From positions 1 through 58,868 of the forward strand of contig VGTH01000033.1 in assembly GCA_016874755.1 (NCBI GenBank): a stretch of 58,868 nt of DNA, written 5' to 3'. The notes beneath the pieces are model-generated. The model did not search any database. It saw nothing but the letters and a program-made list of their open reading frames with translations, and was not told where the DNA came from. Origin of the DNA: Deltaproteobacteria bacterium (GTDB lineage Bacteria > Desulfobacterota > Binatia > UBA9968). Within the stretch, counting starts at the first letter, position 1; the number at the start of each line of letters is the position of its first letter. Positions 991 through 16,778 of the stretch are shown one piece after another. Both the position numbers and the translations under genes were made by a program.

Positions 991-2283
991 ATGTTCGGGC
1001 TAAGACATCCTGCGAACCAATGTGATCGAGTAAAACCCCGCCGAGTCGTGGTGACTGGCCTTGGGGTCGTCAGTCCGAACGGCGTCGGCGTTGATAGTTA
1101 CAAAAGATCCTTGGAGCAAGGACTAAGCGGTATCAGTACGATTTCGTCTTTTGATGCGAGCGGGCTTGCGTGCCGGGTGGCCGGCGAGGTGACAGCCGCG
1201 AGAGAAGATACGGAACTGCCGCCGCGTGAGCGTAGGCGCATCGGGCGTGCCGTGCATTTGGCGATTTCGGCGACTCGCGAGGCTTTGAATCAGGCTCGGG
1301 TTTGTCCGTCGGGCATGAGTTTGGCCGAGAGGCAGTCGTGGGGCGTGATCATTGGCAGCGGCGGTGGGGCGGTGGATTTTGCCGAGGAACAGTATCGGCT
1401 CTATTATAGTGATCAGTTTCGCAAGATTAGTGCTTATAATGTCTCGAGTTCGACCATCGGCTCTCTATCCAGCGAGATCTCGATCCATTTTGGTTTTCAT
1501 GGTCCTAGCCATGTCATCTCCACAGGCTGCACGAGTTCCACCGATGCGTTAGGCTATGCGTTTAATCAAATCCGTTTCGGCTTGGCCGATCGTTTAGTCG
1601 CGGGCGGCGCCGATGCGACTATTACGCCGGCGGTTATGCAGGGCTTTTGCATCATGCAAGCTGTGTCGACATCGCGCAATGACAAGCCGTCGCGGGCGTC
1701 TCGGCCGTTCGACCACAGCCGTGACGGATTTATTCTTGGGGAGGGTGCCTGGATTCTGATTCTGGAAGAGCGCGAGCTGGCATTGACGCGGGGTGCGAGA
1801 GTCTACGCTGAGCTGTTGGGATACGGGTCGACATGCGACGCGTATCATCGCGTCCGTCTCGAGCCGAGCGGCGAGGAACCAGCGCGGGCAATGAGCTTGG
1901 CGATCCAAGACGCGCGGCTTGCCAAAGACGAAATAGGTTACGTTGCGTTGCACGGGACTTCTACGGTGCTGAACGATAAAACCGAGACCCGTGCGGCAAA
2001 AGTATGTTTCGGCAAGCGAGCCCACGAGCTGCCGATGAGTTCGGTTAAGTCGATGATCGGACATCCTCAAGGCGCATCGGGATCGGCCGGTGTGGTGGCG
2101 GCGATCTGCGGCATGAACGGCGGCTTTTTGCCGCCAACGATAAATTTGGATAAGTCCGATCCGGAGTGCGATCTCAATTACATTCCTAATCAAAGTATCG
2201 AAAAGTCGATCGACATCGCGCTGTGTAACTGTATCGGTTTCGGCTCGAAAAACTCCGCACTGGTCGTCGCTCGGGGGTGTTGA
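991..2283 (+). CDS. Beta-ketoacyl-ACP synthase, FabF/KAS II-type
   Basis: A full-length thiolase-fold condensing enzyme of 430 residues. The N-terminal strand VVVTGLGVVSPNG is typical. The catalytic triad is visible: nucleophile Cys180 in TGCTSS, His321 in LHGTST and His358 in KSMIGHPQGA, spaced almost as in FabF. It would condense an acyl chain with malonyl-ACP. It stands apart from any fab operon and is followed after 1 bp by a methyltransferase, then an FAD oxidoreductase and an SRPBCC protein, so a dedicated lipid, pigment or polyketide-like product is more likely than bulk fatty-acid synthesis. The first 16 residues could be over-called, since the conserved part begins at about residue 17. 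Confidence 0.88.
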   Translation: MFGLRHPANQCDRVKPRRVVVTGLGVVSPNGVGVDSYKRSLEQGLSGISTISSFDASGLACRVAGEVTAAREDTELPPRERRRIGRAVHLAISATREALNQARVCPSGMSLAERQSWGVIIGSGGGAVDFAEEQYRLYYSDQFRKISAYNVSSSTIGSLSSEISIHFGFHGPSHVISTGCTSSTDALGYAFNQIRFGLADRLVAGGADATITPAVMQGFCIMQAVSTSRNDKPSRASRPFDHSRDGFILGEGAWILILEERELALTRGARVYAELLGYGSTCDAYHRVRLEPSGEEPARAMSLAIQDARLAKDEIGYVALHGTSTVLNDKTETRAAKVCFGKRAHELPMSSVKSMIGHPQGASGSAGVVAAICGMNGGFLPPTINLDKSDPECDLNYIPNQSIEKSIDIALCNCIGFGSKNSALVVARGC

Positions 2284-2284
2284 C

Positions 2285-2989
2285 GTGGAGCGGAGTTACG
2301 ACAAAGAAATGATGGATCTTCCGGACAACCTTCCGGAGATCTTGGCCGAGGACTTGAACAACCTGCGTATCCTCAACCGATACTTGAGCGGCTCGCGCAG
2401 CGTGATGTCGGCGCTTCAGCAAGCTGTGGGGGATGAGCTACCGAAAGAGCTTTCGATACTGGATGTCGGCACCGGTAGCGCCGATATTCCAGCGGCAATA
2501 TTTGCTTGGGCAAAACGGCGCAAGGTCGCGGCGAATATCGTAGCCGTGGAGGCAGACTGGATAACCGCGCGCATCGCGGCTGATCAAACCAGGAAACTCG
2601 GGGCCATCAAGATTATTCGAGCTGATGCCAGGGCACTGCCATTTTCTCCCGGCTCTTTCGATTTCGTAATCGCATCGCAGTTTTTGCATCATTTCTCGGA
2701 GGACCGAATCATCGAGCTTTTGAAGCATTGGGCCACGCTGGGACGGCGTGCGATTGTGATCAGCGATCTGATAAGAAGCCCGATTGCCTATTTTGGAATT
2801 CGACTGCTCACCAAGCTTGCGACGCGCAACGTCATGACGCTGATTGATGCGCCGCTGTCGGTGCGACGTGCATTCACATTTAGCGAATGGCACCGCCTCT
2901 TGTCCCAGGCCGATATCGGGCCGGTGAAAATGTTCTCGGTTTGCCCTTTTCGCATGGCTGCCGTGGTTCAACTGGGAGGGCGGCAATGA
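2285..2989 (+). CDS. Class I SAM-dependent methyltransferase
   Basis: A 234-residue protein with motif I ILDVGTGSADIP (about residues 57-68), an acidic post-I segment and an ARALPFSPGSFDFVIAS segment typical of methyltransferase family 11. The start is GTG one base after the ketosynthase stop; an ATG at 2309 is an alternative. The stop overlaps the next ATG by 4 bp (ATGA), indicating translational coupling. Homologous methyltransferases often sit next to an FAD oxidoreductase in small ketosynthase or type III PKS clusters. It probably O- or C-methylates the product of the ketosynthase. The exact substrate is unknown. Confidence 0.85.
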   Translation: MERSYDKEMMDLPDNLPEILAEDLNNLRILNRYLSGSRSVMSALQQAVGDELPKELSILDVGTGSADIPAAIFAWAKRRKVAANIVAVEADWITARIAADQTRKLGAIKIIRADARALPFSPGSFDFVIASQFLHHFSEDRIIELLKHWATLGRRAIVISDLIRSPIAYFGIRLLTKLATRNVMTLIDAPLSVRRAFTFSEWHRLLSQADIGPVKMFSVCPFRMAAVVQLGGRQ

Positions 2990-4146
2990 AGGAGTTCGAT
3001 GTTGCAATCATTGGCGCCGGACCGGCGGGCAGCGCGACTGCGATCACGCTTGCGCAGAGCGGGTTTGATGTTGTGCTGATCGATCGCGCGTTTTTCCCGC
3101 GCGATAAACTATGCGGCGATTTTGTCAATCCGATTAACTGGCCAGTGCTCCAAGAACTGAATGTTGCCCACGAGTTGCTTTCTTTGCCGCATACCAAGGT
3201 CTCGACGTTTCGCCTGACCACGGCCGGCGGAGCGGAAGCGGTCCGTGCTATGCCGGGGCAAGGCGTGTATCACTTCGGACTGGGTCTTAGACGCTTTCAT
3301 CTTGATCATGTGCTTTTTGAGCGGGCGGCGCGCTCCGGCGTGAGTGTTTATCAAGGGGTCAAGGTGAGCGGCGTAAAGCGCGTTTCGCGTGGCTGGCATT
3401 TGGATCTGAATGAGCACGGTCGCCCATGGGTTGCTCAAGCTAAGCTTCTGGTCGGTGCTGATGGCAGAAACTCTTGGGTGGCACGGCAAATCGGCGTTGC
3501 GTCTAAGCCTGCCAAGTACCCAGCTTCAGTGGGATTTGAAATCCAATTACAAAAAGTCCCGGGGTCGTGTGGCAGTGTCGAGATTCATCAGTACGTCGGC
3601 GGTTATGGGGGAGTGGTGCGGGTCGATCCGAGTACCGTCAATCTTTGCTTTACGGTAAAGCGATCGCTGCTCGGGAAATCGATTTCCTTCGATAATCTGC
3701 GCGAGCGTTTTCTGCGCCACAATCCGTTTCTCAATGTGCTTGTGCGCGCGAGCGAGCCGGTAAGCGATCTGCGTTCAGTGTGGCCGGTTTATTTTCCGGC
3801 GCGACGCTGTTTTGGCGATGGTTTTCTGCTGGTGGGAGACGCGGCTCGGGTAACGGAGCCGCTAACCGGTGAAGGAATTTTCTTCGCACTCAGAGCCGGC
3901 CAGTTGGCCGCAAGAACGATGGCCTCAGCCTTGCGGCAGAACAATTTTACAGAGGTACAGCTCGGTTCGTACGATCGAGCCTGCCGGAGGGAGTTTAGCG
4001 CGCGCCAGCGGCTTAACGCGCTAATACGGAACTGCATCTATCGACCGAGATTACTGTCGTTGGCGGTGCCGCTCTTGAGTCGTCAAACGCAGCTTTTGGA
4101 TTCTTTGATTAGCCAAGTCTGTCTGCCGCGTTTGGCTTGTGATTGA
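2986..4146 (+). CDS. FAD-dependent oxidoreductase, geranylgeranyl-reductase/monooxygenase family
   Basis: 386 residues from the ATG that overlaps the methyltransferase stop. The N-terminus has the dinucleotide-binding motif VAIIGAGPAGSATA. A second FAD motif, LVGDAARVTEPLTGEGI, lies near residue 280. The DKLCGD segment near residue 40 is typical of the group that includes geranylgeranyl reductases and aromatic-ring monooxygenases. It probably oxidises or reduces the ketosynthase-derived intermediate. Together with the two genes before it this forms a tightly coupled unit. It is soluble and has no signal peptide. Confidence 0.85.
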   Translation: MKEFDVAIIGAGPAGSATAITLAQSGFDVVLIDRAFFPRDKLCGDFVNPINWPVLQELNVAHELLSLPHTKVSTFRLTTAGGAEAVRAMPGQGVYHFGLGLRRFHLDHVLFERAARSGVSVYQGVKVSGVKRVSRGWHLDLNEHGRPWVAQAKLLVGADGRNSWVARQIGVASKPAKYPASVGFEIQLQKVPGSCGSVEIHQYVGGYGGVVRVDPSTVNLCFTVKRSLLGKSISFDNLRERFLRHNPFLNVLVRASEPVSDLRSVWPVYFPARRCFGDGFLLVGDAARVTEPLTGEGIFFALRAGQLAARTMASALRQNNFTEVQLGSYDRACRREFSARQRLNALIRNCIYRPRLLSLAVPLLSRQTQLLDSLISQVCLPRLACD

Positions 4147-4183
4147 CAAATCATGTCTAATAATCTTGGGCCTTGCGAGAGTT

Positions 4184-4711
4184 ATGGAACATTTTAGCAA
4201 AACATCTCTCATTGCGGCGCCGGCCCAGCTGGTTTTTGGCTGGCATGAAGCTCCCGAGGTGTTCGAAAAGTTGACTCCACCCTGGGAGCATGTGCGAATT
4301 ATCGAGCGCAGCGCCGAGGGCATTAAACCTGGAACCCAATTGACTCTTGAGATGCGCCTCGGACCACTTAGGCGGCGTTGGATCGCGGTTCATACCGCTT
4401 ACGAGCCCGGACGGATGTTTCGTGATGAGCAGTTATCAGGTCCCTTCAAGATTTGGGTTCACACCCATAGCGTCACACCGAAAGATCGGAATTCCTGTGA
4501 GCTGACCGATGATATCCAATATCAGTTACCATTTGGATGGATCGGTCGGTTGGTTGGCGGTTGGTTGATACGGCGCAAACTCAACCGTCTGTTCGATTAT
4601 CGCCACCGGGTGACCAAACAGGCATGCGAGCATCAGGTTGATTTTCCGATCACAAAGAACCGTTCCGGCAATCTTCACTTGCTTGAAGCGCGCCGCCGAA
4701 TTGGAAATTGA
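4184..4711 (+). CDS. SRPBCC-fold (START-like) ligand-binding protein
   Basis: A 175-residue single-domain protein. The sequence AAPAQLVFGWHEAPEVFEKLTPPW and the later HTHSVTPKDRNS/ELTDDIQYQLPFG pattern match the SRPBCC/polyketide-cyclase-like group related to the one at 8850-9320. The ATG at 4184 was chosen; an upstream GTG at 4139 would overlap the oxidoreductase gene. Members of this fold bind hydrophobic ligands, and some act as cyclases or lipid carriers. As the fourth gene of the ketosynthase set it may bind or cyclise the product. The final 35 residues are a basic tail outside the fold. Confidence 0.75.
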   Translation: MEHFSKTSLIAAPAQLVFGWHEAPEVFEKLTPPWEHVRIIERSAEGIKPGTQLTLEMRLGPLRRRWIAVHTAYEPGRMFRDEQLSGPFKIWVHTHSVTPKDRNSCELTDDIQYQLPFGWIGRLVGGWLIRRKLNRLFDYRHRVTKQACEHQVDFPITKNRSGNLHLLEARRRIGN

Positions 4712-5818: not shown

Positions 5819-7606
5819 GTGGCCCAATCGGCAGCTAAATTGACCGCGGAAGGATTAGAGACAGTGAACTTGGACCGGGTGCTCAACTCCGGGCAACTGT
5901 TGAAATTGCTCCAGACCGCTGTCGCGCAAGCGAAAGAAGCGGTGCTGATTACCTCCGCCCAGCTCGAACTACCTGGCCCCGAGATTTTGTTCGTCAATCC
6001 CGCGTTTTGCGAGATGACAGGCTACAGTCAAGCAGAGATTATTGGCAAGACGCCGCGCATTCTTCAGGGGCCAAGATCTGATCGTGCCATGCTTCAGCGC
6101 TTGCGAGAGGCTCTCGCTGAGGGCGAAACGTTCTCGGGCGAAACTGTCAATTATCGCAAAGATCGTAGTGAATATTACGTCGAGTGGGATATCAGTCCGG
6201 TTCGCGCGGAGGACGGGCGAGTTGTTTATTTTCTTTCGATTCAGAGAAACATCACTGCCCGTAAAGCGGCCGAACAGCAGCTTCAAGACGCCTTTACTCA
6301 GATCGAGAAAAGCCGCGCCGATCTCCTCGCGATCCTAGATGAGCTTAACATCGGCACGGCCATGGCCGACGAGCAGGGGCGGATTGTGTTTCTTAACCGC
6401 GTCGCCAAGGGCATTTTCGCGCGGCGAGAAAGCTCAAACCGGCCTTGGCGCGAGCTGTTCAATTTCTCGCACGAAGATACTGCGTTGCTGGATGGCGTGG
6501 TCCGAAGAAGCCCTACGGAGCGCGTCAAGATTTCGGTGCATGTCGATCGTGCCGATGGCCACCGGTTCTCCTTGGAAGTGGATGTCAAAGATGATCCCCG
6601 CGACCGACGCGGCAAGATTTTCTTTTTTTATGACGTCACCGTGGTGGATGACCTGCGCCGGCTGCTTGGCGAACGGGTGCAGTTTCACGATCTGATTGGC
6701 AAGAGCGAGGCCATGCAGACCGTGTACAAGCGCATCCGCGACATAGCTCGCGTTGACGCAACTGTCCTCATTGAAGGGGAGACGGGCACCGGCAAAGAAC
6801 TGGTCGCACGCGCGATTCATTTTTCTAGTCAACGTAAGGACAAACCTTTTGTTGCGGTAAACTGCGCTGGCCTCACCGAATCGCTCTTGAGCAGCCAGCT
6901 CTTCGGTCATAAACGAGGCGCGTTTACGGGCGCCATCGATGATCAGCGCGGTCTGTTTGAAGCCGCCAACGGCGGAACCTTGCTGCTGGACGAAATCGGC
7001 GATATCCCGATGCCTGTGCAGAATCAGCTGTTGCGCGTTCTACAGGAGCGCGAGATTGTGCGGCTTGGCGAGACCTTGCCGCGCAAGATTGACGTGCGCA
7101 TTTTGGCAGCGACGCACCGCAATTTAAGCGAGGAGGTTGCCGCAGGCAGGTTTCGCTCTGATTTGTTTTACCGCATCCGGGTGGCGCGCCTTGGTTTGCC
7201 GCCGCTAAGACAGCGACGTGAGGATATTCCCGCGCTGGCGGCGTCCTTTCTTGGGCAGTTTTCCGCTGCCAGCGGCAAGCGCGTCAGCGAGATGAGCCAA
7301 GAGGCGCTCCGTTTTTTGATGGACTATGATTGGCCTGGTAATGTGCGCGAGCTACGGAGCGCCATAGAGTTTACCTTGATTCACTGTGCCGGAACGGTGA
7401 TTCAAGCCGACGATTTGCCGCCGGAAGTATTTCCCATGGCGGACGTCATCCCTGGTGACCCACTGATGGACGAGAGATCGCGATTTCTCCAAGCGCTCGA
7501 TCGTTCCCGCGGCAATCGTGCCCAAGCTGCACGCTTGTTAGGCATCAGTCGCGCAACTCTTTACCGCCGTTTGGCCGACCTCAAGATCGATCCCGAGAGT
7601 CACTAG
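5819..7606 (+). CDS. Sigma-54-dependent transcriptional activator with two PAS domains
   Basis: 595 residues from a GTG start. Domain order: a PAS domain (about 30-150) with NPAFCEMTGY and GKTPRILQGPRSD; a second PAS (about 165-285); an AAA+ domain with Walker A GETGTGKEL (about 320), the sigma-54-contacting GAFTGA loop (about 366) and Walker B LLLDEIGDIP; and a C-terminal Fis-type helix-turn-helix (RGNRAQAARLLGISRATLYR). The first PAS resembles LOV domains, but the flavin-reactive cysteine position (NCRFLQG in LOV) reads TPRILQG, so a LOV photocycle is not expected. Intact GAFTGA and Walker motifs mean it can open sigma-54 promoters. The nearest such promoter is at 7746, driving the fasciclin gene just downstream. 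Confidence 0.95.
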   Translation: MAQSAAKLTAEGLETVNLDRVLNSGQLLKLLQTAVAQAKEAVLITSAQLELPGPEILFVNPAFCEMTGYSQAEIIGKTPRILQGPRSDRAMLQRLREALAEGETFSGETVNYRKDRSEYYVEWDISPVRAEDGRVVYFLSIQRNITARKAAEQQLQDAFTQIEKSRADLLAILDELNIGTAMADEQGRIVFLNRVAKGIFARRESSNRPWRELFNFSHEDTALLDGVVRRSPTERVKISVHVDRADGHRFSLEVDVKDDPRDRRGKIFFFYDVTVVDDLRRLLGERVQFHDLIGKSEAMQTVYKRIRDIARVDATVLIEGETGTGKELVARAIHFSSQRKDKPFVAVNCAGLTESLLSSQLFGHKRGAFTGAIDDQRGLFEAANGGTLLLDEIGDIPMPVQNQLLRVLQEREIVRLGETLPRKIDVRILAATHRNLSEEVAAGRFRSDLFYRIRVARLGLPPLRQRREDIPALAASFLGQFSAASGKRVSEMSQEALRFLMDYDWPGNVRELRSAIEFTLIHCAGTVIQADDLPPEVFPMADVIPGDPLMDERSRFLQALDRSRGNRAQAARLLGISRATLYRRLADLKIDPESH

Positions 7607-8603: not shown

Positions 8604-8819
8604 ATGAAAACGCTCATATTCGTGGTCGGAATGATAATGATGACGGCGGCAGTTCACCTACACAGAAAGTCCACCCGTAAGCGTGTGATAACAGAACCGC
8701 AGAACTCAATGGCGTTTTGGAATCCTTTTTTCGCCAAACGCCGTCGTCGATCAAGTTACTGCGAGCATAAACGGACCTTAGTCTATGACCCGATCAGCCG
8801 TGATGCTAAATCATCCTAA
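8604..8819 (+). CDS. Small single-pass membrane protein, unknown
   Basis: 71 residues with a good ribosome site (GGAGGCGGG). The N-terminus MKTLIFVVGMIMMTAAVHLH forms one hydrophobic segment, followed by a strongly basic region (RKSTRKR, KRRRRSS). This predicts an inner-membrane anchor with a cytoplasmic or periplasmic basic tail. It is the third gene of a run fasciclin, zinc ribbon, membrane peptide. No homologue is recognised, and a chance frame cannot be excluded. Confidence 0.45.
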   Translation: MKTLIFVVGMIMMTAAVHLHRKSTRKRVITEPQNSMAFWNPFFAKRRRRSSYCEHKRTLVYDPISRDAKSS

Positions 8820-8849
8820 GCTCTGTTTGAAAAAATAAAGTGTTGCGTC

Positions 8850-9320
8850 TCACGATCTGATTCCACGAGAATTTTGCGAATCGAAAAGGTCTTTTAGCAC
8901 TTGATGGCGGTAGTCAAAAATGCGCTCTAAATCAGGAGCGACGAGTAAGAGGTTAACTAAAGTGCCGCCGGGCACCGCGTATTCGACGTTGTCGCCCACT
9001 AAAGTGCCGCCATGGTCGTGATCAAACGTATGATCGTGGACCCACAAAGAGTACGGTCCTCTGGTTTGCCGGTCGACGAATCGCAGGGGCGGCTGCCATA
9101 AGCTGATCTCACTTTGCCAAAAAATAGGGATGCCGCGCAGGCGCAGACGATAGTCAAGCAGTGTTCCGGTTTGAATCGTCGTTGATGGGGGTGATAGGAC
9201 TTTAAATCTCAACCACGGCGGGGTGACGCGGTCGAGGTTATGCGGGTTGGAAAAAAAATTGAAGATTTTCTCGCGCGGTTGAGGCAGCCATAGGCTTCTC
9301 TTGAGTGAAAAGGTTTTCAT
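8850..9320 (-). CDS. SRPBCC-fold protein of the light-regulon type
   Basis: 156 residues with the typical pattern LPQPREKIFNFFSNPHNLDRVTPPWL at the N-terminus and TFDHDHGGTLVGDNVEYAVPGG further on. The family is found alone or joined to TIGR01777 epimerases (YfcH-like). Here a TIGR01777 protein is encoded divergently nearby at 10411. The start lies 27 bp behind the DUF523/DUF1722 gene, so the two form an operon. Ligand unknown. In several bacteria this trio belongs to LitR/CarH-controlled light-inducible sets, which fits the B12-binding regulator at 11375. Confidence 0.8.
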   Translation of the reverse strand: MKTFSLKRSLWLPQPREKIFNFFSNPHNLDRVTPPWLRFKVLSPPSTTIQTGTLLDYRLRLRGIPIFWQSEISLWQPPLRFVDRQTRGPYSLWVHDHTFDHDHGGTLVGDNVEYAVPGGTLVNLLLVAPDLERIFDYRHQVLKDLFDSQNSRGIRS

Positions 9321-9347: not shown

Positions 9348-10310
9348 TCACACGTGATTTCGCAGCATCAGTTCTTTCGGATTCGGTTCGAGATAGACCT
9401 GCGTTTTCAGGTAGGCAATCTGATATTTGTTGGTGTAGTGGCGCAGGAGGGTTGTGGGTGCGATCAGCGGCACCAGTTGGCGGCGAAAGTCGCGAATCAG
9501 TTCGACCATTTCTTGGCGCTCATCGGCTGAAAGCTGCTTGGAAACGTAACCAAGCATGTGCTCCAAGACGTTGGTGTGCTTCTGGGTGGTGGCAGGTTTG
9601 GCCAGAGCGTGCATATAAAGTTCGCCGTATTCAAAATAGATGTCGGCTAGGGGCTTGGTTTTGGCCGCGCCAACGATGCGGCCGAGTTGACGGTAATGAG
9701 TCTCACTGTGGGCGAGCAAAAGAAATTTATGTGCGGTGTGAAACTCGACCAACCCTTGTCGAGATTGGGGTTGCGACGAAAAATCCTGCCAACGCCGGTA
9801 GGCAAAGACTCTTTCGATGAAATTCTCCCGGAGCTTGAGGTCGTTGAGGCGACCTTCCTCTTCGACAGGCAGCAGCGGCAGATGTTGCATCAGCGCCGCA
9901 GCGAACAAGCCGCGTCCGTCCCGTTTTGGCGCGCCTTTAGCACTAAAAACTTTGACCCTTTCCATGCCGCAACTCGGCGAGTTTTTCTTGAGCACGTAGC
10001 CCGAGAGATGGAGATCGATGAGCTGCTGGACACGCTGCCGGGCGAATTTGTTCATAATTTCGGTCCAGTCGGTGCCGGACTTTTCGGCGATCATTTTGGG
10101 GTTCGTGGCGTCGCCCACCAGCCGCACGGTTTCGCGGGGAACACCCATGCCGGTCTCCATTTCGGGACAGACGGCAACCCATTCGACAAACCGGCCCAAA
10201 ACGCCGGTAAGAAATTCGTCGCGTTTGTGTCCGCCGTCGAAGCGAACCTTGGCGCCGAGAAGGCATGAGCTGATGCCGACCTTTGGTTTAGTGGCCCCAA
10301 CTTTGTTCAT
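9348..10310 (-). CDS. DUF523 and DUF1722 (YbgA-like) fusion protein
   Basis: 320 residues if started at the ATG at 10310 (MNKVGATKPKVGISSC), which I prefer because the longer start at 10352 would lie upstream of the predicted -10 box. The N-terminal DUF523 half has the conserved cysteines in ISSCLLGAKVRFDGGHKRD, CPE and KKNSPSCGMERVK. The C-terminal DUF1722 half (about 200-315) has FHTAHKFLLLAHS and YHYxxLG-like segments. In E. coli ybgA is next to the photolyase gene phrB, and related genes occur in light-induced regulons. Biochemical role is unknown. Confidence 0.88.
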   Translation of the reverse strand: MNKVGATKPKVGISSCLLGAKVRFDGGHKRDEFLTGVLGRFVEWVAVCPEMETGMGVPRETVRLVGDATNPKMIAEKSGTDWTEIMNKFARQRVQQLIDLHLSGYVLKKNSPSCGMERVKVFSAKGAPKRDGRGLFAAALMQHLPLLPVEEEGRLNDLKLRENFIERVFAYRRWQDFSSQPQSRQGLVEFHTAHKFLLLAHSETHYRQLGRIVGAAKTKPLADIYFEYGELYMHALAKPATTQKHTNVLEHMLGYVSKQLSADERQEMVELIRDFRRQLVPLIAPTTLLRHYTNKYQIAYLKTQVYLEPNPKELMLRNHV

Positions 10311-10340
10311 AGCTATGTTGATTACATGTGACAGGTGCTT

Positions 10341-10369
10341 TATACAAGTCAATATTATTTAACATGCAA
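10341..10369 (-). promoter_or_regulatory. Sigma-70-like promoter of the DUF523/DUF1722-SRPBCC operon
   Basis: On the minus strand TTGCAT and TGTATA are separated by exactly 17 bp. The -10 box is embedded in TTGACTTGTATAAAG, which resembles the TGTATA/TGTACA-type boxes of B12-dependent light regulators. That resemblance is inference. Confidence 0.5.
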
Positions 10370-10410: not shown

Positions 10411-11319
10411 ATGAAGCTCGTCATAACCGGCGCCAGCGGTTTTATTGGATCGGCTCTAGTGCAGCAACTGTGGAAGGATTTCCATTCGCTGGTGCTGTTG
10501 AGCCGCAACCCGCGGCGCCAAGAAGAAGGCAGTAGCACCAAGACTTATCTAAGCTGGCAGCCCGGCCAAAGCGGTGCATGGGAGCAATCCGTTGACGGCG
10601 CCGACGGCGTAATCAATCTAGCGGGGGAGCCGATTGCGGGTAAACGTTGGAGCGTCAAGCAGAAGCAGAAGCTGCGATCGAGTCGCATCGAGACCACCCA
10701 AGCGTTGGTTTCAGCCATAGCGAAAGCCAAAGTCAAACCAAAGTTTTTTCTCAGCGCCTCCGCCGTCGGTTATTACGGCGATCGGGGCGACGAGCTGCTG
10801 ACCGAAGAGTCGCCGCCGAGCAATGATTTTCTCGGACGACTTTGTGCCGATTGGGAAGCGGAAGCAAAAAAAGCTGAGCTCTATGACATTAGAGTGGTGC
10901 AGCTGCGGACCGGCATCGTGCTTGGCAAGGACAAAGGTGCGCTCAAGAAGATGGCGCCGCCCTTCAAAATGTTTTTCGGCGGGCCCCTGGGTTCGGGACA
11001 GCAGTGGATGCCGTGGATTCATATCGACGATGAGGTGGGTCTGATCAAATTCTTGATGGAACATGAGTCGGCCCGCGGCGCGTTTAATCTGACCGCCCCC
11101 AATCCGGTCACCATGGCAGAGTTTGCCGCCGCGCTTGGCAAGGCGCTCAACCGTCCGGCCTGGGCTTCGGTGCCTTCTTGGGTGCTGGCCCTGATGCTTG
11201 GCGAGATGGCAGACATGCTTTTAGGCGGACAGCGCGCCGTGCCGAAAGCCGCTCTGGGTCTCGGCTACCGCTTCAAGTATCCGAGAATCGCCGTAGCGTT
11301 GGACTCGTTAAATTTATGA
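10411..11319 (+). CDS. TIGR01777-family NAD-dependent epimerase/dehydratase-like protein
   Basis: 302 residues. It opens with the Rossmann motif MKLVITGASGFIGSALV, followed by INLAGEPIAGKRW, SASAVGYYGDRG (SDR catalytic Tyr region), LRTGIVLGKDKGAL and the C-terminal PSWVLALMLGEMAD segment, all hallmarks of the YfcH/TIGR01777 group. The reaction is not established for the family. It is the first gene of a run leading into the B12-binding regulator and the carotenoid genes. The ribosome site is weak. Confidence 0.9.
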   Translation: MKLVITGASGFIGSALVQQLWKDFHSLVLLSRNPRRQEEGSSTKTYLSWQPGQSGAWEQSVDGADGVINLAGEPIAGKRWSVKQKQKLRSSRIETTQALVSAIAKAKVKPKFFLSASAVGYYGDRGDELLTEESPPSNDFLGRLCADWEAEAKKAELYDIRVVQLRTGIVLGKDKGALKKMAPPFKMFFGGPLGSGQQWMPWIHIDDEVGLIKFLMEHESARGAFNLTAPNPVTMAEFAAALGKALNRPAWASVPSWVLALMLGEMADMLLGGQRAVPKAALGLGYRFKYPRIAVALDSLNL

Positions 11320-11374: not shown

Positions 11375-12313
11375 TTGGAAGCCTCAGGACTCACCAAGAA
11401 GTTTTCGCAGCGGCCGAAAAGTCTCGGCTGTTTGTCGAATGCGTATCATATGGCGCTCGTCAACGGCGACGCCGATGCGGCGGGCGCAGTGATCGACGAA
11501 CTGGTTGCCGGAAGATATACGCTCGCGGATATATACATGTCTTTGATCGGGCCGGCCCTGCAGGGCCTTGGCGAGGCTTGGTGTGTCGGCGATATCGGTG
11601 TCGGTCAGGAAAAGCTCACGACCCAGATCGTGCTGGCGCAAATGGAACGGCTGCGCGCGAAGTTTGTCGCGCCGTCGCACCGCTCTTCTTTTCGCGTCAT
11701 GGTTTCTTGCGTCGAAGGGGAAATGCACTTTATCGGCGCGCGCATGTTTGCCGACCTTTGCCTGGCGCGTGGCTGGTGGGTCGACTTTCTCGGTCCCGAT
11801 GCTCCGAACTCGGCGATCGTCGACATGGTAAGACGGCGCTATCCCCAACTACTGGCCCTTTCGCTGACGATGGACCACGGCCTCGCCCATGCAAGAAAAC
11901 TCGCGGTCGAACTGGAGGATGTGGCGGCGCCGCCAAAGCTGCTTCTGGGGGGGCAGGCGGTGGCGGCTATTGTTGCGCGATCCTTAGGGAGCGGCGACAT
12001 CCGTGTTGTCAGCGACCTTTATGCTGGGGTGGAATTTGTCGCGGATTGCCAGCGCAGCGAGCGGCCCAAGACGATTTTGCGCGAGTACTTGACCACGCTT
12101 GGCAAGAAGGTGAGGCGGCTGCGCACCGACAAGGGCTGGACCCAGGAGCAACTGGCCGAGGCCGCCAAGGTGACCCGAGTTTGCATCGTCGCCGTGGAAG
12201 GCGGCAAACAAAATCTTTCCATGGATATCGTCGTCCGGCTCGCCAATGCTTTGGCGATCACCCCGGAAAGTCTGTTGACCGGTGATCATGAACAGGTGAA
12301 CACTTCCGGTTGA
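11375..12313 (+). CDS. Cobalamin-binding, CarH-like regulator with C-terminal XRE helix-turn-helix
   Basis: 312 residues from a TTG start. Residues about 20-100 form a B12-binding four-helix cap: Trp69 followed after nine residues by Glu79-Lys80. In CarH the matching motif is W-x9-E-H, so the second capping His is replaced by Lys. Residues about 105-225 form the Rossmann B12 domain with GEMHFIG (His118 as lower axial ligand) and FLGPDAP. Residues about 246-302 are an XRE/Cro-type helix-turn-helix (RRLRTDKGWTQEQLAEAAKV). Known CarH/LitR photoreceptors carry an N-terminal MerR-type DNA-binding domain, so the order and the DNA-binding class both differ here. It sits directly before the carotenoid genes and probably represses them in the dark. 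Confidence 0.85.
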   Translation: MEASGLTKKFSQRPKSLGCLSNAYHMALVNGDADAAGAVIDELVAGRYTLADIYMSLIGPALQGLGEAWCVGDIGVGQEKLTTQIVLAQMERLRAKFVAPSHRSSFRVMVSCVEGEMHFIGARMFADLCLARGWWVDFLGPDAPNSAIVDMVRRRYPQLLALSLTMDHGLAHARKLAVELEDVAAPPKLLLGGQAVAAIVARSLGSGDIRVVSDLYAGVEFVADCQRSERPKTILREYLTTLGKKVRRLRTDKGWTQEQLAEAAKVTRVCIVAVEGGKQNLSMDIVVRLANALAITPESLLTGDHEQVNTSG

Positions 12314-12326
12314 AAGGCGGGGATGT

Positions 12327-13445
12327 GTGAAAAATCCGTATTTTGCAAATGACAGCGCGGTGCTGGAACAACCACTGGCTCATCGTCCCGAGTGGCCGCG
12401 CCGTGAGGTTGTGGCGAGCCATCGGCCGAGCGGAAGCCTGCCCTTTCTGGACAACCTCGGTGAGCTGCTCGGCGTGAACGATGTTGCTGCGCTACAGGAC
12501 ATTTTGGATCGTGCATTGTTCGGCCCGGTGGCGGAGGCGACGGCCCATCCCGGCAAGCGCATCCGCGCGCAGCTGGTGAGCTTGTGCTACCAACTGGTCA
12601 ATACTGCCTCACCTTCGGTTGCACAGGACGCGGCCTATTGCCGGCGCGCAGCCGAAGTGGTGGAGGTGATTCACCTTGGTTCCTTGATCGTCGACGATAT
12701 TGAAGACGGCAGCCTGGTGCGGCGCGGCCATCCGGCGCTGCATGTGCGGCACGGTGTGCCGCTCGCGCTCAATGCCGGCAACTGGCTCTACTTTTGGTCC
12801 GCCGACCTGATTCGGCGCTTGGATCTACCGGAAAGCGCAAAATTGCTGGTTTACGAACTGTACCATCGGACTATGTCGCGCGCCCACCTGGGCCAAGCGG
12901 CCGACCTTGGCTGTCGCGCCAATACCTTGGCGCAGTCGGCGGTGGCGCCGGCCTGCCTCGGCACCGTCGAATTGAAGACCGGCGCGTTGATGGGTTTTGC
13001 TGCGGCATTGGGTGGCGCAGCGGCAGCGGCGCCGGTGCGGATGGTGCGGCTGTTGGACGAATTTGGCAAACGTCTTGGCGTTGCGCTGCAGATGTTTGAC
13101 GATATGGGAAACGTCATCGGCCGCTGTGAACCGGCCAAAAGATGCGAAGACCTGTTAATGAAAAGACTTTGTTGGGTGTGGGCCTGCGCGGCCACGCTCA
13201 GTCCGGCAAAAGAGTATCAGGCCTTCGTCGCCGCGGTGCAGGCTCTGCCTGAGTCAGCCGCGCTAAATGACTGGATGACCCGCTATGAGTTGATTCCCTA
13301 CGTGCGCCAGAGCGCCCGCGGCCATCTCGATGCGGCGTTCCGTTTTTTGGAAGCAGGCTTGAAAGACGCGCCGCAAGCATGGTCGAAGCCGGCCTTGGAG
13401 CAGCTGCGTCACTTGGGTGAGGAGATCGCGGTGGCCTATGACTAA
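12327..13445 (+). CDS. Polyprenyl synthetase (GGPP synthase-like) with altered second Asp-rich motif
   Basis: 372 residues, GTG start behind AGGCGGGG. The isoprenyl synthase fold is clear: GKRIRAQL (about 76-83), first Asp-rich motif DDIED (123-127) and R132/R133. The second Asp-rich motif, normally DDxxD, reads DDMGN (258-262). The following region (KRCEDLLMKRLCWVWACA) differs from the usual GK(x)T/LP segment. The position in front of crtI and crtB suggests it makes C20 or longer diphosphate for carotenoids. The change may reduce activity or make it a regulatory or partner subunit, since a canonical synthase is encoded at 16876. The gene overlaps crtI by 8 bp. Confidence 0.85.
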   Translation: MKNPYFANDSAVLEQPLAHRPEWPRREVVASHRPSGSLPFLDNLGELLGVNDVAALQDILDRALFGPVAEATAHPGKRIRAQLVSLCYQLVNTASPSVAQDAAYCRRAAEVVEVIHLGSLIVDDIEDGSLVRRGHPALHVRHGVPLALNAGNWLYFWSADLIRRLDLPESAKLLVYELYHRTMSRAHLGQAADLGCRANTLAQSAVAPACLGTVELKTGALMGFAAALGGAAAAAPVRMVRLLDEFGKRLGVALQMFDDMGNVIGRCEPAKRCEDLLMKRLCWVWACAATLSPAKEYQAFVAAVQALPESAALNDWMTRYELIPYVRQSARGHLDAAFRFLEAGLKDAPQAWSKPALEQLRHLGEEIAVAYD

Positions 13446-14970
13446 GCCGCGCGCAGCGATCGTCGGCAGTGGCTTCGGCGGTTTAGCGGCAGCGATCCGC
13501 TTGCAGGCTGCCGGCATGGAAACCGTGATTTTTGAGAAACGTGATCTGGCCGGCGGGCGCGCTTACGTTTATCGCGATCAGGGGTTCACTTTCGATGCCG
13601 GCCCGACGGTGATTACCGCGCCCGGTTGTTTGCGTGAACTGTTCACGATTGCCGGTCGCGAGCTCGACGATTACGTCGAGCTCCTGCCGGTCAAACCGTT
13701 TTATCGTTTGTTCTGGGAAGATGGTTACCGTTTCGACTACTCGGACGATGGCGAAGCGATCGAAAAGCAAATCATCGCTAAAGCACCAGGCGATCTGCCG
13801 GGCTACAAGAAGTTTCTTGCCTACTCCGAAGAGGTCTTCCGCGAGGGCTACGAAAAACTGGCCCATGTGCCGTTTTTAAATTGGCGCAGCATGATCGCCG
13901 TGGCGCCGCAGTTGATTCGCTTGGAAGCGTATCGGTCGGTTTACAGTGCGGTGGCTAAACATATTCAAGATCCCCATCTGCGCCAGCTGTTTAGCTTTCA
14001 CTCTCTGCTCGTCGGCGGCAATCCGTTTACCACCACCTCGATCTACACATTGATTCACTGCCTGGAACGGAAGTGGGGCGTTTACTTTCCCAAAGGTGGC
14101 ACCGGCGCCTTGGTGCAGTCGCTGGTCAAGCTCTACGATGAAATGGGCGGCAAGATTCACTACCAGAGTGAAGTGGCCGAGATTCTCACCGAGAATGAGA
14201 AAGTGATCGGGCTGCGCACCCAAGACGGCGCGCGCGAGCAGTTCGACGTGGTTGTCAGCAATGCCGATGTGGTTCACACCTACGATCGACTGCTCAAGCA
14301 CGCACCCGAGATCGGCGCCATGCGGCACAAGCTCAAGCGCATGGCGCACAGCATGTCGTTGTTTTTGATCTACTTCGGTGTGCGGCAAAACTATCCGGAT
14401 CTTTTGCATCACAATATTATTTTCGGGCCGCGTTATCGCGAGTTGTTGGAAGATGTTTTCTTGGGCGGCCGGCTGGCCAGTGATTTTTCGCTTTATCTGC
14501 ATGCGCCGTCAAAAAGCGATCCGGGGTTGGCGCCACCGGGCTGCGAGACCTATTACGTGCTGTCGCCGGTGCCGCATCTTGGCAAGCTAGCGATCGACTG
14601 GAGGATCGAAGGTCCGCGCTACGCCGAGCGCATTCTCAAATATCTCGAAGAGCGCTACATGCCCGGACTGCGCGACGCGATCGTCACACAGCGTATTTTC
14701 ACGCCGAAAGATTTTGAAACCGAGTTGAACGCCTTCAACGGCTCGGCATTTTCGCTCGAGCCGCGTTTGACCCAGAGCGCCTATTTTCGCGTGCACAACC
14801 GCGATCGCATCATTAAGGGGCTTTACTTTGTCGGTGCCGGCACCCACCCAGGGGCGGGGATTCCCGGCGTGGTCAATTCAGGCAAAGCGACGGCGGGTTT
14901 GATTTTGCAGGATTACAAATCGCCGCTTACGCGCGCGCGCCAAAAAGTGGCCGAACCTTCCTATGCCTGA
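13438..14970 (+). CDS. crtI: Phytoene desaturase CrtI
   Basis: 510 residues from the ATG that overlaps the preceding stop. N-terminal FAD-binding motif AIVGSGFGGLAAAIRL, then FEKRDLAGGRAYVYRDQGFTFDAGP, and the C-terminal bacterial-type desaturase signature LYFVGAGTHPGAGIPGVVNS. Length and motifs fit the four-step desaturases that turn phytoene into lycopene at the membrane. It overlaps crtB by 8 bp, showing tight coupling. A 3,4-desaturase (CrtD-like) role is less likely because it is the only desaturase next to crtB. Confidence 0.95.
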   Translation: MTKPRAAIVGSGFGGLAAAIRLQAAGMETVIFEKRDLAGGRAYVYRDQGFTFDAGPTVITAPGCLRELFTIAGRELDDYVELLPVKPFYRLFWEDGYRFDYSDDGEAIEKQIIAKAPGDLPGYKKFLAYSEEVFREGYEKLAHVPFLNWRSMIAVAPQLIRLEAYRSVYSAVAKHIQDPHLRQLFSFHSLLVGGNPFTTTSIYTLIHCLERKWGVYFPKGGTGALVQSLVKLYDEMGGKIHYQSEVAEILTENEKVIGLRTQDGAREQFDVVVSNADVVHTYDRLLKHAPEIGAMRHKLKRMAHSMSLFLIYFGVRQNYPDLLHHNIIFGPRYRELLEDVFLGGRLASDFSLYLHAPSKSDPGLAPPGCETYYVLSPVPHLGKLAIDWRIEGPRYAERILKYLEERYMPGLRDAIVTQRIFTPKDFETELNAFNGSAFSLEPRLTQSAYFRVHNRDRIIKGLYFVGAGTHPGAGIPGVVNSGKATAGLILQDYKSPLTRARQKVAEPSYA

Positions 14971-15916
14971 AGGGCTGCCAAACGAGGTCCGAGCCGCACT
15001 CGACGAGTGCCGCTGGATGATCGCCAAAGGGTCGAAGAGTTTTTCTCTTGCGGCCAAGCTTTTCGAGCCGGAAAACCGCCATGCGGCGTTCTTTCTCTAT
15101 GGCTGGTGCCGCTACTGTGATGATCAAGTGGACGAGGCCGGCCAGCAAGCCGATCGAGCTCAAATGGAGCGCCGAGTGGCGGAGCTGAAGCGCGCCACGC
15201 TTGCTGCGTTTACCAACGAGGCGCAGGATCAAGCCGTGTTTGTTGCAATGCAGTATATCGTGCGACGCTACGCCATTCCGTCCCACTACGCGCTGGAATT
15301 GATCGAAGGCATGGCGATGGATGTGCGCCAGACACGCTATCGAACGCTCGACGAACTGCTGCTCTACTGCTATCGCGTTGCCGGCACCGTCGGCCTGATG
15401 ATGTCCCATGTGATGGGCCTGCGCGACCAGACCGCGCTCAAGCATGCCGCGGACTTGGGCATCGCCATGCAGCTCACCAACATCGCTCGCGATATCATCG
15501 AAGACGCAGCGCTCGGCCGGATCTACCTGCCGCAGGAGTGGCTCGACCAGGCAGGTGTCGCTGCTGAAGAAATTGCCGAGGCGAAGAACCGTGCAAAACT
15601 AGCTCAGCTGACGCAGCGTTTGCTACAGCGAGCCGATGATTACTACCGCTCCGGTGACGCCGGTCTGTGGCATTTGTCGTTTCGCTCCGCCTGCGCGGTG
15701 TCAGCCGCGCGCCAGGTTTACTCTGAGATTGGCTCGTTGCTGCTGAGAAGGGGCGCGCACGCCTGGGACCAGCGCACCTATGTGACGGGCGTGCGTAAAA
15801 TCCGGGTTGTCCTGCGCGGTGTGGGCAAACTGCTGAGTTCATTGCCGGCGCGATGCGCCCGCCCCTGGTCGCCCGTGCCGATCGATCATGTGTTGACCTT
15901 TGCGCAAGTCCGCTAA
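14963..15916 (+). CDS. crtB: Phytoene synthase CrtB
   Basis: 317 residues. The two Asp-rich motifs of squalene/phytoene synthases are present: YCDDQVDEA (about 51-59) and NIARDIIEDAALGRIYLP (about 173-190). The enzyme joins two geranylgeranyl diphosphates to phytoene, the first committed carotenoid step. It starts inside the end of crtI and is followed by cruF after 19 bp. Confidence 0.95.
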   Translation: MPEGLPNEVRAALDECRWMIAKGSKSFSLAAKLFEPENRHAAFFLYGWCRYCDDQVDEAGQQADRAQMERRVAELKRATLAAFTNEAQDQAVFVAMQYIVRRYAIPSHYALELIEGMAMDVRQTRYRTLDELLLYCYRVAGTVGLMMSHVMGLRDQTALKHAADLGIAMQLTNIARDIIEDAALGRIYLPQEWLDQAGVAAEEIAEAKNRAKLAQLTQRLLQRADDYYRSGDAGLWHLSFRSACAVSAARQVYSEIGSLLLRRGAHAWDQRTYVTGVRKIRVVLRGVGKLLSSLPARCARPWSPVPIDHVLTFAQVR

Positions 15917-15935
15917 TGTGTATGGAGAAAACACG

Positions 15936-16778
15936 ATGCATTTGATCCCGTGGATTTTGCTCGCCGTGCAAGCCGCTATTGTTGTCGCGAGTCTGTTGGG
16001 CTACGGCATCTTTACCGCGCGGCCGGACCTACTCATGCAGGTCGATCCGCAAGCGCGCTTTTTCACTTGGGCGTTTTCCGGCTTTGCCATCGGCAATATG
16101 CTGTTCGGCGGACTGGCGGTGGTTGCCGATGCGCTTATGCGCAACCGACTAAGAGCGCTGGTCGCGTTCATCGCCATTTATGCCGTGAGTCTCGCCAGCG
16201 AACTGATGGGAACCGGATGGGGCATCCCGTTTGGCCCGTACTCTTACACCCACCTGCTGGGGCCTAAATGGTTTGGCCTGGTGCCGTATCTGATTCCTCT
16301 CAGTTGGTTCACCCTGGCCTGGGTTTGCTGGGTGATCGCGCGCCAGCGCGCCATGGGTATGAAATGCGTCCTCCTGGCAACCTGGCTACTCGTGGCCTGG
16401 GACCTGTTGCTCGATCCGGCGATGAGCAAGGTGACGAGCTATTGGGTCTGGGGTGAAGCGGGAAGCTACTATGGGATGCCATGGAGCAATCTGTTCGGTT
16501 GGGCAGTCACTGGCTTGGTGCTGTTTGTCATCCTGCACCGAGTTGAGCCTGAGCCGCGCAGCACGGTAAGCTTCGCCGGGTGGGTCTACTTTGTCAATTT
16601 TGCCTTGCCGCTTGGATTTTGTGCTCTCAATCAATATTGGCTGGCAGTGGCGGCCGGCATCGGCAGTGTGGTTTTGGCTTTGGTCGCTTTCCGAAAGACT
16701 CAATCGGCGCCGGAGTCTTTAAGTGCCTTGAACCCTAAATTTCCAGCGGAGGCGGGCGCGTCGCGCCATCTTTCATGA
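15936..16778 (+). CDS. cruF: CruF-type carotenoid 1',2'-hydratase (carotenoid biosynthesis membrane protein)
   Basis: 280 residues from the ATG behind GGAGA; an upstream in-frame start at 15900 lies inside crtB. A polytopic membrane protein with about seven hydrophobic segments. The family signature is strong: GTGWGIPFGPYSYT, LGPKWFGLVPYLIPLSWF and WDLLLDPAMS followed by GMPWSNLFGW. CruF adds water to the terminal psi-end double bond of acyclic or monocyclic carotenoids. With only CrtI, CrtB and CruF the predicted pigment is a hydroxylated acyclic carotenoid, possibly modified further by enzymes outside the window. Confidence 0.9.
   Translation: MHLIPWILLAVQAAIVVASLLGYGIFTARPDLLMQVDPQARFFTWAFSGFAIGNMLFGGLAVVADALMRNRLRALVAFIAIYAVSLASELMGTGWGIPFGPYSYTHLLGPKWFGLVPYLIPLSWFTLAWVCWVIARQRAMGMKCVLLATWLLVAWDLLLDPAMSKVTSYWVWGEAGSYYGMPWSNLFGWAVTGLVLFVILHRVEPEPRSTVSFAGWVYFVNFALPLGFCALNQYWLAVAAGIGSVVLALVAFRKTQSAPESLSALNPKFPAEAGASRHLS

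Follow-up and report, generated by a model that had tools for sequence, protein, structure and literature searches.

A predicted cobalamin-binding protein with a C-terminal XRE domain upstream of carotenoid genes in Binatia, a candidate counterpart of CarH

Regulators that link cobalamin to carotenoid formation include CarH and class I LitR, known from T. thermophilus and M. xanthus, which carry an N-terminal MerR domain in front of a B12-binding cap and Rossmann domain. MerR proteins account for 35 of the 37 proteobacterial transcription factors with B12 domains in the P2TF database (PMC3532121, in part), and the CarH tetramer reads 11-bp direct repeats (PMC8156234, in part). Other arrangements do exist. 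A SignatureFinder survey from 2024 mentions, in generic terms, helix-turn-helix (HTH) domains at either end of B12 sensors (PMC11796333, in part); the main text of that paper does not contain the term “XRE”, and its sections covered here give neither an operon nor an operator for HTH-fused cobalamin-binding domains (CBDs). Nor did the part of the open PubMed Central literature that we searched name a B12-XRE fusion. In the photocobilins (SasPcob, 8J2W/8J2X, and AbDPcob, 8J2Y) the partner of the B12 domain is a biliverdin-binding domain, with an additional diguanylate cyclase in AbDPcob. CtMerR (8JBS/8JBT) is again an N-terminal MerR protein. For the Binatota, the genome paper lists pigments (PMC8262859, in part), and “CarH” does not occur in its main text.

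Here we describe a regulator gene from a member of the Binatia, located on a contig of 58,868 nucleotides that was analysed as a whole (hereafter the window). The open reading frame (11375–12313, forward strand) starts with TTG and encodes 312 amino acids, although its exact start is uncertain, with alternative in-frame starts possible at residue 20 (TTG) and residue 26 (ATG). The initial annotation, made from the sequence alone, proposed a CarH-like B12 protein with an XRE domain at its C-terminus, and all three of the domains on which that proposal relied score above their Pfam cut-offs. The four-helix cap (residues 22–93; 11438–11653, forward) matches B12-binding_2 with 35.4 bits (cut-off 23), the Rossmann domain (residues 107–211; 11693–12007, forward) matches B12-binding with 57.7 bits (cut-off 32.1), and the HTH (residues 242–303; 12098–12283, forward) matches HTH_31, HTH_3, and HTH_19 with 40.3, 37.5, and 36.0 bits (cut-offs 27, 23, and 30.2, respectively), which places it in the XRE/Cro-C1 family. 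Both the class of DNA-binding domain and the domain order thus differ from those of MerR-type CarH, as had been stated; Pfam reports no MerR domain in this protein. Its best NCBIfam match is nevertheless CarH (NF052513), through the sensor part only and with 67.7 bits against an equivalog cut-off of 400. The C-terminal domain resembles the C-proteins C.AhdI (1Y7Y, 67.2 bits) and C.BclI (2B5A, 59.9 bits) in a profile search, which are small free-standing proteins without a B12 domain. We lean toward the reading that the protein is an adenosylcobalamin (AdoCbl)-dependent repressor of carotenoid and photoprotection genes that is released by light.

Structure prediction, proposed earlier as a check, gave an AlphaFold2 model (11-row alignment) with a mean pLDDT of 84.2 and a pTM of 0.67, in which four helices are followed by the Rossmann domain and by a helix (residues 232–252) that is continuous with the HTH; the C-terminal domain is helical. 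A fold search with this model (VIA-align) placed the photocobilins at the top (Z 26.5, 206 residues aligned, 1.8 Å), followed by methionine synthase, other corrinoid proteins, and CtMerR (Z 22.9–22.5). The photocobilins and CtMerR also form the top four of a sequence profile search, in which CarH ranks below three other corrinoid proteins. The matches listed in the fold search span at most residues 5–240, and the assignment of the C-terminal HTH rests on the sequence profiles. The photocobilins thus have the solved B12 domain closest in fold to that of the regulator, and in SasPcob this domain likewise comes first; the partner domain of the regulator, however, is an HTH, and no biliverdin-binding globin-like domain was found by Pfam, so that it does not belong to the photocobilins. 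Against a light-released, CarH-like protein it may be said that in fold similarity B12 enzymes unrelated to light equal CtMerR and surpass T. thermophilus CarH (TtCarH, Z 20.1). The same fold is moreover found in the SCHIC domain of AppA (Z 20.3) and in AerR (Z 18.4), and it would suit a repressor that binds a cobalamin but works without light, responding to the amount of this cofactor, to its upper ligand, or to oxygen and adjusting carotenoid formation accordingly. We regard such a light-independent repressor as unlikely, though as a serious alternative, and return to it below.

In the cobalamin pocket, the classic motif [ED]xHxxG-x41-SxT-x26-GG is complete at residues 116–193, as is the form typical for CarH/LitR, [ED]xHx2[GP]x41Sx[TV]x22-27GG. 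Alignment with TtCarH equates Trp131 with W69, His132 with C70, Glu141 with E79, His142 with K80, and His177 with H118. The earlier assignment of W69-x9-E79 and H118 is therefore correct, and the reported change of the capping E-H pair to E-K (E79-K80) is real and invariant in all four family orthologues. A second replacement that had escaped notice, Cys70 directly behind the Trp, is invariant in the same four proteins. The Wx9EH motif reads W69-x9-E79-K80 in the regulator and ends in EK in all four family members, whereas all seven other B12-XRE homologues possess EH; the residue following the Trp is His in six of these and Ala in one. GxxWx9E was found in 53 of the 74 B12 domains gathered, of which 47 continue with EH, four with EK, and two with ER, the Cys after the Trp being confined to the four with EK. 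W69, E79, H118, G66, P144, S163, and the glycine pair 192–193 are invariant in all 11 B12-XRE proteins (the regulator and its ten homologues). It also counts against the favoured reading that Arg176, which forms a salt bridge in the TtCarH dimer (PMC8221060, in part), aligns with Met117 of the regulator, while the partner Asp is retained.

The published light signature requires EH (PMC11796333, in part). GxxW (residues 66–69), GxxH (115–118), and GxxxP (140–144) are present in the regulator, but with EK in place of EH the set is incomplete and the SignatureFinder filter (GxxW, EH, GxxH, GxxxP) would drop the Binatia branch. Since the counterparts of both His132 and His142 are replaced, a light response of this branch is something that we infer. 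His132 is the ligand of the light state in TtCarH, and the H132A variant is mostly still tetrameric in light (PMC10442372, in part). This His is not universal, since CtMerR has an Arg at this position and is yet counted as light-responsive (PMC11796333, in part). In this respect CtMerR resembles the regulator. The Cys/Lys pair thus calls for care in predicting a light response but does not disprove it. The two altered pocket residues would also fit a B12-independent regulator comparable to CarA of Myxococcus, which keeps the B12 motif but has lost part of Wx9EH (PMC9304148, in part), and in which the B12 fold would be a scaffold for another signal. This seems quite improbable, because CarA lost the Trp while Trp, Glu, and the lower His are kept in 11 out of 11 proteins here, and because the C/K pair is fixed across four proteins, three of them sharing no more than 46–52% identity with the first, which looks like constraint and not like decay. 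The invariance of the adenosyl-capping Trp and Glu likewise speaks against the light-independent repressor, for which the two replacements in the Binatia branch (EK in place of EH, and Cys in place of His132) count as support.

A database search for the same architecture, also proposed earlier, yielded ten full-length homologues from several phyla: three from the same family of Binatia and seven from the Chloroflexota, Armatimonadota, and Myxococcota. Together with the regulator, all exceed the Pfam cut-offs for B12-binding_2, B12-binding, and a C-terminal HTH_3. The seven distant ones derive from Dehalococcoidia (L022, L023, and L025), other Chloroflexota (L027 and the SAR202 locus L030), Fimbriimonadales (L024), and a metagenome-assembled genome labelled “Deltaproteobacteria” that a tree tool filed under the Myxococcota (L026). 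Within the class, a survey of 148 genomes with a four-row profile (E 1e-15) gave matches in 18, with full-length B12-XRE genes in four, all from the family of the window; in a fifth genome of this family (G019) the copy is decayed, and in the remaining 13 the match is confined to the B12 part. In a sample of the phylum, 26 out of 247 genomes match at E 1e-20 and the XRE part is reached only by the window's own match. Scanning of contigs resulted in 15 loci, i.e., three family orthologues, one decayed second copy (G014), the seven distant full-length homologues, and four with a match in the B12 part alone. The CarH profile (E 1e-15) has further matches in 17 of the 148 genomes of the class, none of them in the family of the window and none above the cut-off. 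A MerR-B12 protein of the CarH type was not found in the genome of the window, where only a 162-amino acid frame matches the MerR part; a PduO-type cobalamin adenosyltransferase is present in this genome.

The initial annotation suggested that the regulator is an independently evolved light switch. In a tree of 69 B12 domains, limited to sequences gathered in this analysis, the 11 XRE-fused domains form one group (support 97/88) and the 17 from proteins labelled MerR another (99/93), with CtMerR, also a MerR protein, outside the latter on a long branch. All 11 thus share both B12 domains, the C-terminal HTH_3, and a single CBD group. Since the DNA-binding parts differ in both family and position, the fusion event appears to be a separate one, and this comparison of sequences supports the view that the B12-XRE fusion arose separately from the MerR fusion. 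The claim does not extend to the B12 domain itself: holding XRE- and MerR-fused domains together made the tree 8.0 log units worse (AU test, p 0.215), so that a joint clade is not rejected and an independent origin of the B12 domain is not maintained. Whether the architecture is already described was likewise answered in two parts, since B12 sensors with a C-terminal HTH are known generically from the survey cited above, while XRE is not named in its main text. The XRE-fused, carotenoid-linked form is therefore a variant of that theme. With respect to mobile elements, no match was obtained in the phage collection, the 29 matching loci on viral contigs, for which the search patterns came from the HTH side of the query, match only residues 211–306 on that same side, and no plasmid covers 80% of the query among the matches listed (20 of 57 plasmid records). 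Elsewhere in the class, a genome (G047) contains a MEDS-B12 gene followed, with a 4-base overlap, by a separate XRE gene (L018, 3511–5321), a two-gene counterpart of the fusion.

The position of the gene bears on its function. As noted initially, it lies immediately upstream of carotenoid genes and close to companions known from light regulons. On the forward strand it is followed by a crtE-like polyprenyl diphosphate synthase (12327–13445; profile matches), the phytoene desaturase CrtI (13417–14970; TIGR02734, 668 bits, cut-off 238.1), the phytoene synthase CrtB (14963–15916; Pfam SQS_PSY, with 313 bits for the CrtB model, below its cut-off of 480), and a CruF-like carotenoid hydratase (15900–16778; Pfam Caroten_synth, 149.9 bits, the CruF models being below their cut-offs). 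This linkage to carotenoid genes is shared with CarH/LitR, as are the cap and Rossmann domain, the Trp/Glu pair, the lower His, and the light-regulon surroundings. Upstream are a TIGR01777 SDR (Epimerase and DUF1731, profile matches; 10411–11319, forward) and, on the reverse strand, a divergent RudS-type gene (9348–10352; 2-thiour_desulf 140.5 bits, DUF1722 138.7 bits) and an SRPBCC-like protein (8850–9320; weak Pfam Polyketide_cyc match, 20.1 bits, below the cut-off of 23.4). RudS is a TudS-DUF1722 fusion that acts as a tRNA 4-thiouridine desulfidase, and rudS genes are reported to belong frequently to light-responsive operons, among them some under LitR control and clusters for carotenoids (PMC11417400, in part). 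In all four intact loci of the family the regulator immediately precedes crtE-crtI-crtB, and cruF follows downstream; a divergent RudS gene is present in the window, G004, and G014 (C211), and in the stretch of G020 examined RudS was not found, the divergent gene being an SRPBCC gene.

At least one light-type companion recurs in four out of the seven loci of other phyla. SRPBCC genes occur in L025 (58% identity, at ca. 4 kb, beyond a transporter gene), L026 (36%), and L030 (46%), a TIGR01777 SDR gene in L024 (42%), and L030 holds a counterpart (36%) of the long SDR that T. thermophilus encodes near carH. L026 also has a DUF1365 gene and an amine-oxidase-type gene. Crt genes were found in none of the seven stretches examined. 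The photoprotection genes (rudS and crt) beside the regulator in the family and these recurring companions argue against the light-independent repressor, for which in turn it may be said that cobT is located directly downstream of the Dehalococcoidia B12-XRE gene in L022 (8057–9286), a branch that may respond to cobalamin supply. A cobalamin riboswitch at the Rfam gathering score was found neither in the window nor in L022–L027 (L030 was outside this search), which bears little either way.

The lack of crt genes at the seven distant loci would also be expected if the regulator were a passenger of the carotenoid locus with its target elsewhere. This is very improbable in view of the distribution within the family, where crtE and crtB are each present in the same six out of 25 genomes and the regulator, which occurs only beside crt genes, in five of these six (one copy decayed) and in none of the other 19 (Fisher p 1.1e-4, or 1.2e-3 with intact copies only, kinship being ignored). 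In the sixth crt-bearing genome (G023), without the regulator, the contig begins inside crtE. The decayed copy, in G019 (L017, ca. 8650–9200), was recognized by eye as a broken regulator upstream of open crtE-I-B-cruF; it shows a frame change, the middle of the Rossmann domain and the Trp motif are lost, and an XRE remnant lies in other frames, damage that may also stem from an assembly fault. G014 carries a second locus (L016, C200) with open SRPBCC and SDR genes and broken copies of rudS, regulator, and crtB, which may represent a second strain in the bin.

Also against a passenger, the best genome-wide match to a candidate operator in G020 (no mismatches) and G014 (one mismatch) is the promoter of the regulator's own locus, an argument that is partly circular since the pattern derives from these sites. 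In the window, this imperfect dyad, AAGTCAATATTATTTAACAT (10346–10365), overlies a putative −10 box in the region that separates rudS from the SDR gene, and it overlaps a σ70-like promoter match (GTGACA-17-AATATT; 10328–10356, forward; one found versus 0.7 expected in shuffles). Sites resembling AAGTCAA-N6-TTGACTT occur in the promoter before the SDR-regulator-crt genes (in G014 regulator-crt) of the four intact loci, 21–45 bases before the next start codon, with a −35-like ACA at equal distance in all four and −10-box-like centres (TATTAT, TATATA, TATATT, or TATACT). The common 20-mer has 93 summed pair identities, compared with 64.1 ± 2.1 (maximum 70) in 60 first-order Markov shuffles. Promoter function as such may account for part of this conservation. 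An operator is indicated by the inverted symmetry, which is clear in two of the four intact loci, with 7/7 arm positions paired in G020, 6/7 in G014, 5/7 in the window, and 4/7 in G004. At three mismatches the window contains one match to the dyad, where 1.68 are expected by chance. A regulon beyond the locus was rejected, as sites with up to two mismatches are at the level of the reversed control in four genomes (G000, 11 versus 6; G004, 3 versus 10, its locus site having three mismatches and thus not being among them; G014, 12 versus 9; G020, 8 versus 14). In three of the seven distant loci (L024, L025, and L027) the 200 bases before the start contain fully matched 7+7 dyads with a spacer of at most 12; they were not used as evidence, ca. 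0.16 being expected per region from simple arithmetic that does not amount to a control.

Building on the architecture, the B12 motif, the conserved site, the gene linkage, and the co-occurrence, which are read directly from the sequences, the light-released repressor that we favour can be pictured as follows, with AdoCbl binding, light response, the direction of control, and the placement of the XRE pair on the dyad as predicted elements. In the dark, AdoCbl would be sandwiched by the four-helix cap and the Rossmann domain, with His118 beneath the cobalt and Trp69 and Glu79 against the adenosyl group, and would hold two XRE domains in a pose that grips the 20-bp dyad. As the dyad covers the putative −10 box from which the SDR, regulator, and crt genes would be transcribed, and adjoins the divergent rudS, this would block expression. 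Light would cleave the Co–C bond, the cap would move and the grip would loosen, upon which carotenoids, RudS, and the regulator itself would be made. The regulator would then resemble CarH in its action. It does not, however, belong to CarH/LitR, since it has neither the MerR domain nor the EH pair, and its candidate site is a dyad and not a direct repeat. If this is right, light sensing through B12 has been coupled to no fewer than two families of DNA-binding domain, attached at opposite ends of the sensor, and recognition has shifted from direct repeats to a palindrome; the cap-Rossmann unit would be a portable light gate that offers a compact optogenetic repressor, and the uncultured Binatia would gain a candidate carotenoid regulator. 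The natural exchanges of His for Cys and His for Lys would test the need for bis-His ligation and for the EH pair in light switching. It is conceivable, though improbable, that the B12-XRE proteins are a B12 photoreceptor class of their own, distinct in output through two C-terminal XRE domains bound to a palindrome across the −10 box, and that in their Binatia branch a cysteine has taken the place of the light-state histidine of CarH, so that the lit state is a His-Co-thiolate and not a bis-His cobalamin and may combine light with redox sensing.

Several further genes adjoin these loci. In the window, a sigma-54 activator with a PAS domain (5819–7606) matches the YtvA blue-light family with 107.8 bits, below the cut-off of 250; by eye it contains a stretch that we take to be LOV-like, GKTPRILQ, without the flavin-binding cysteine. 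Genes for a ketoacyl synthase, a methyltransferase, an FAD oxidoreductase, and polyketide-cyclase-like proteins are located at 991–4711 of the window, and in G004 a ketoacyl synthase, a methyltransferase, and an FAD oxidoreductase lie between crtB and cruF (L013, 9607–12810); this arrangement suggests that the genes at 991–4711 and the crt genes contribute to one product, for instance a modified carotenoid. T. thermophilus has a glycosyltransferase/acyltransferase pair near carH. No match to its acyltransferase was obtained, and its glycosyltransferase matches weakly (25–27% in L014 and L015, 41% in L017). Glycosyltransferase and acyltransferase genes adjoin the crt locus in L014 (5241–7176) and L015 (8960–11007), where a carotenoid glycoside ester is a possible product.
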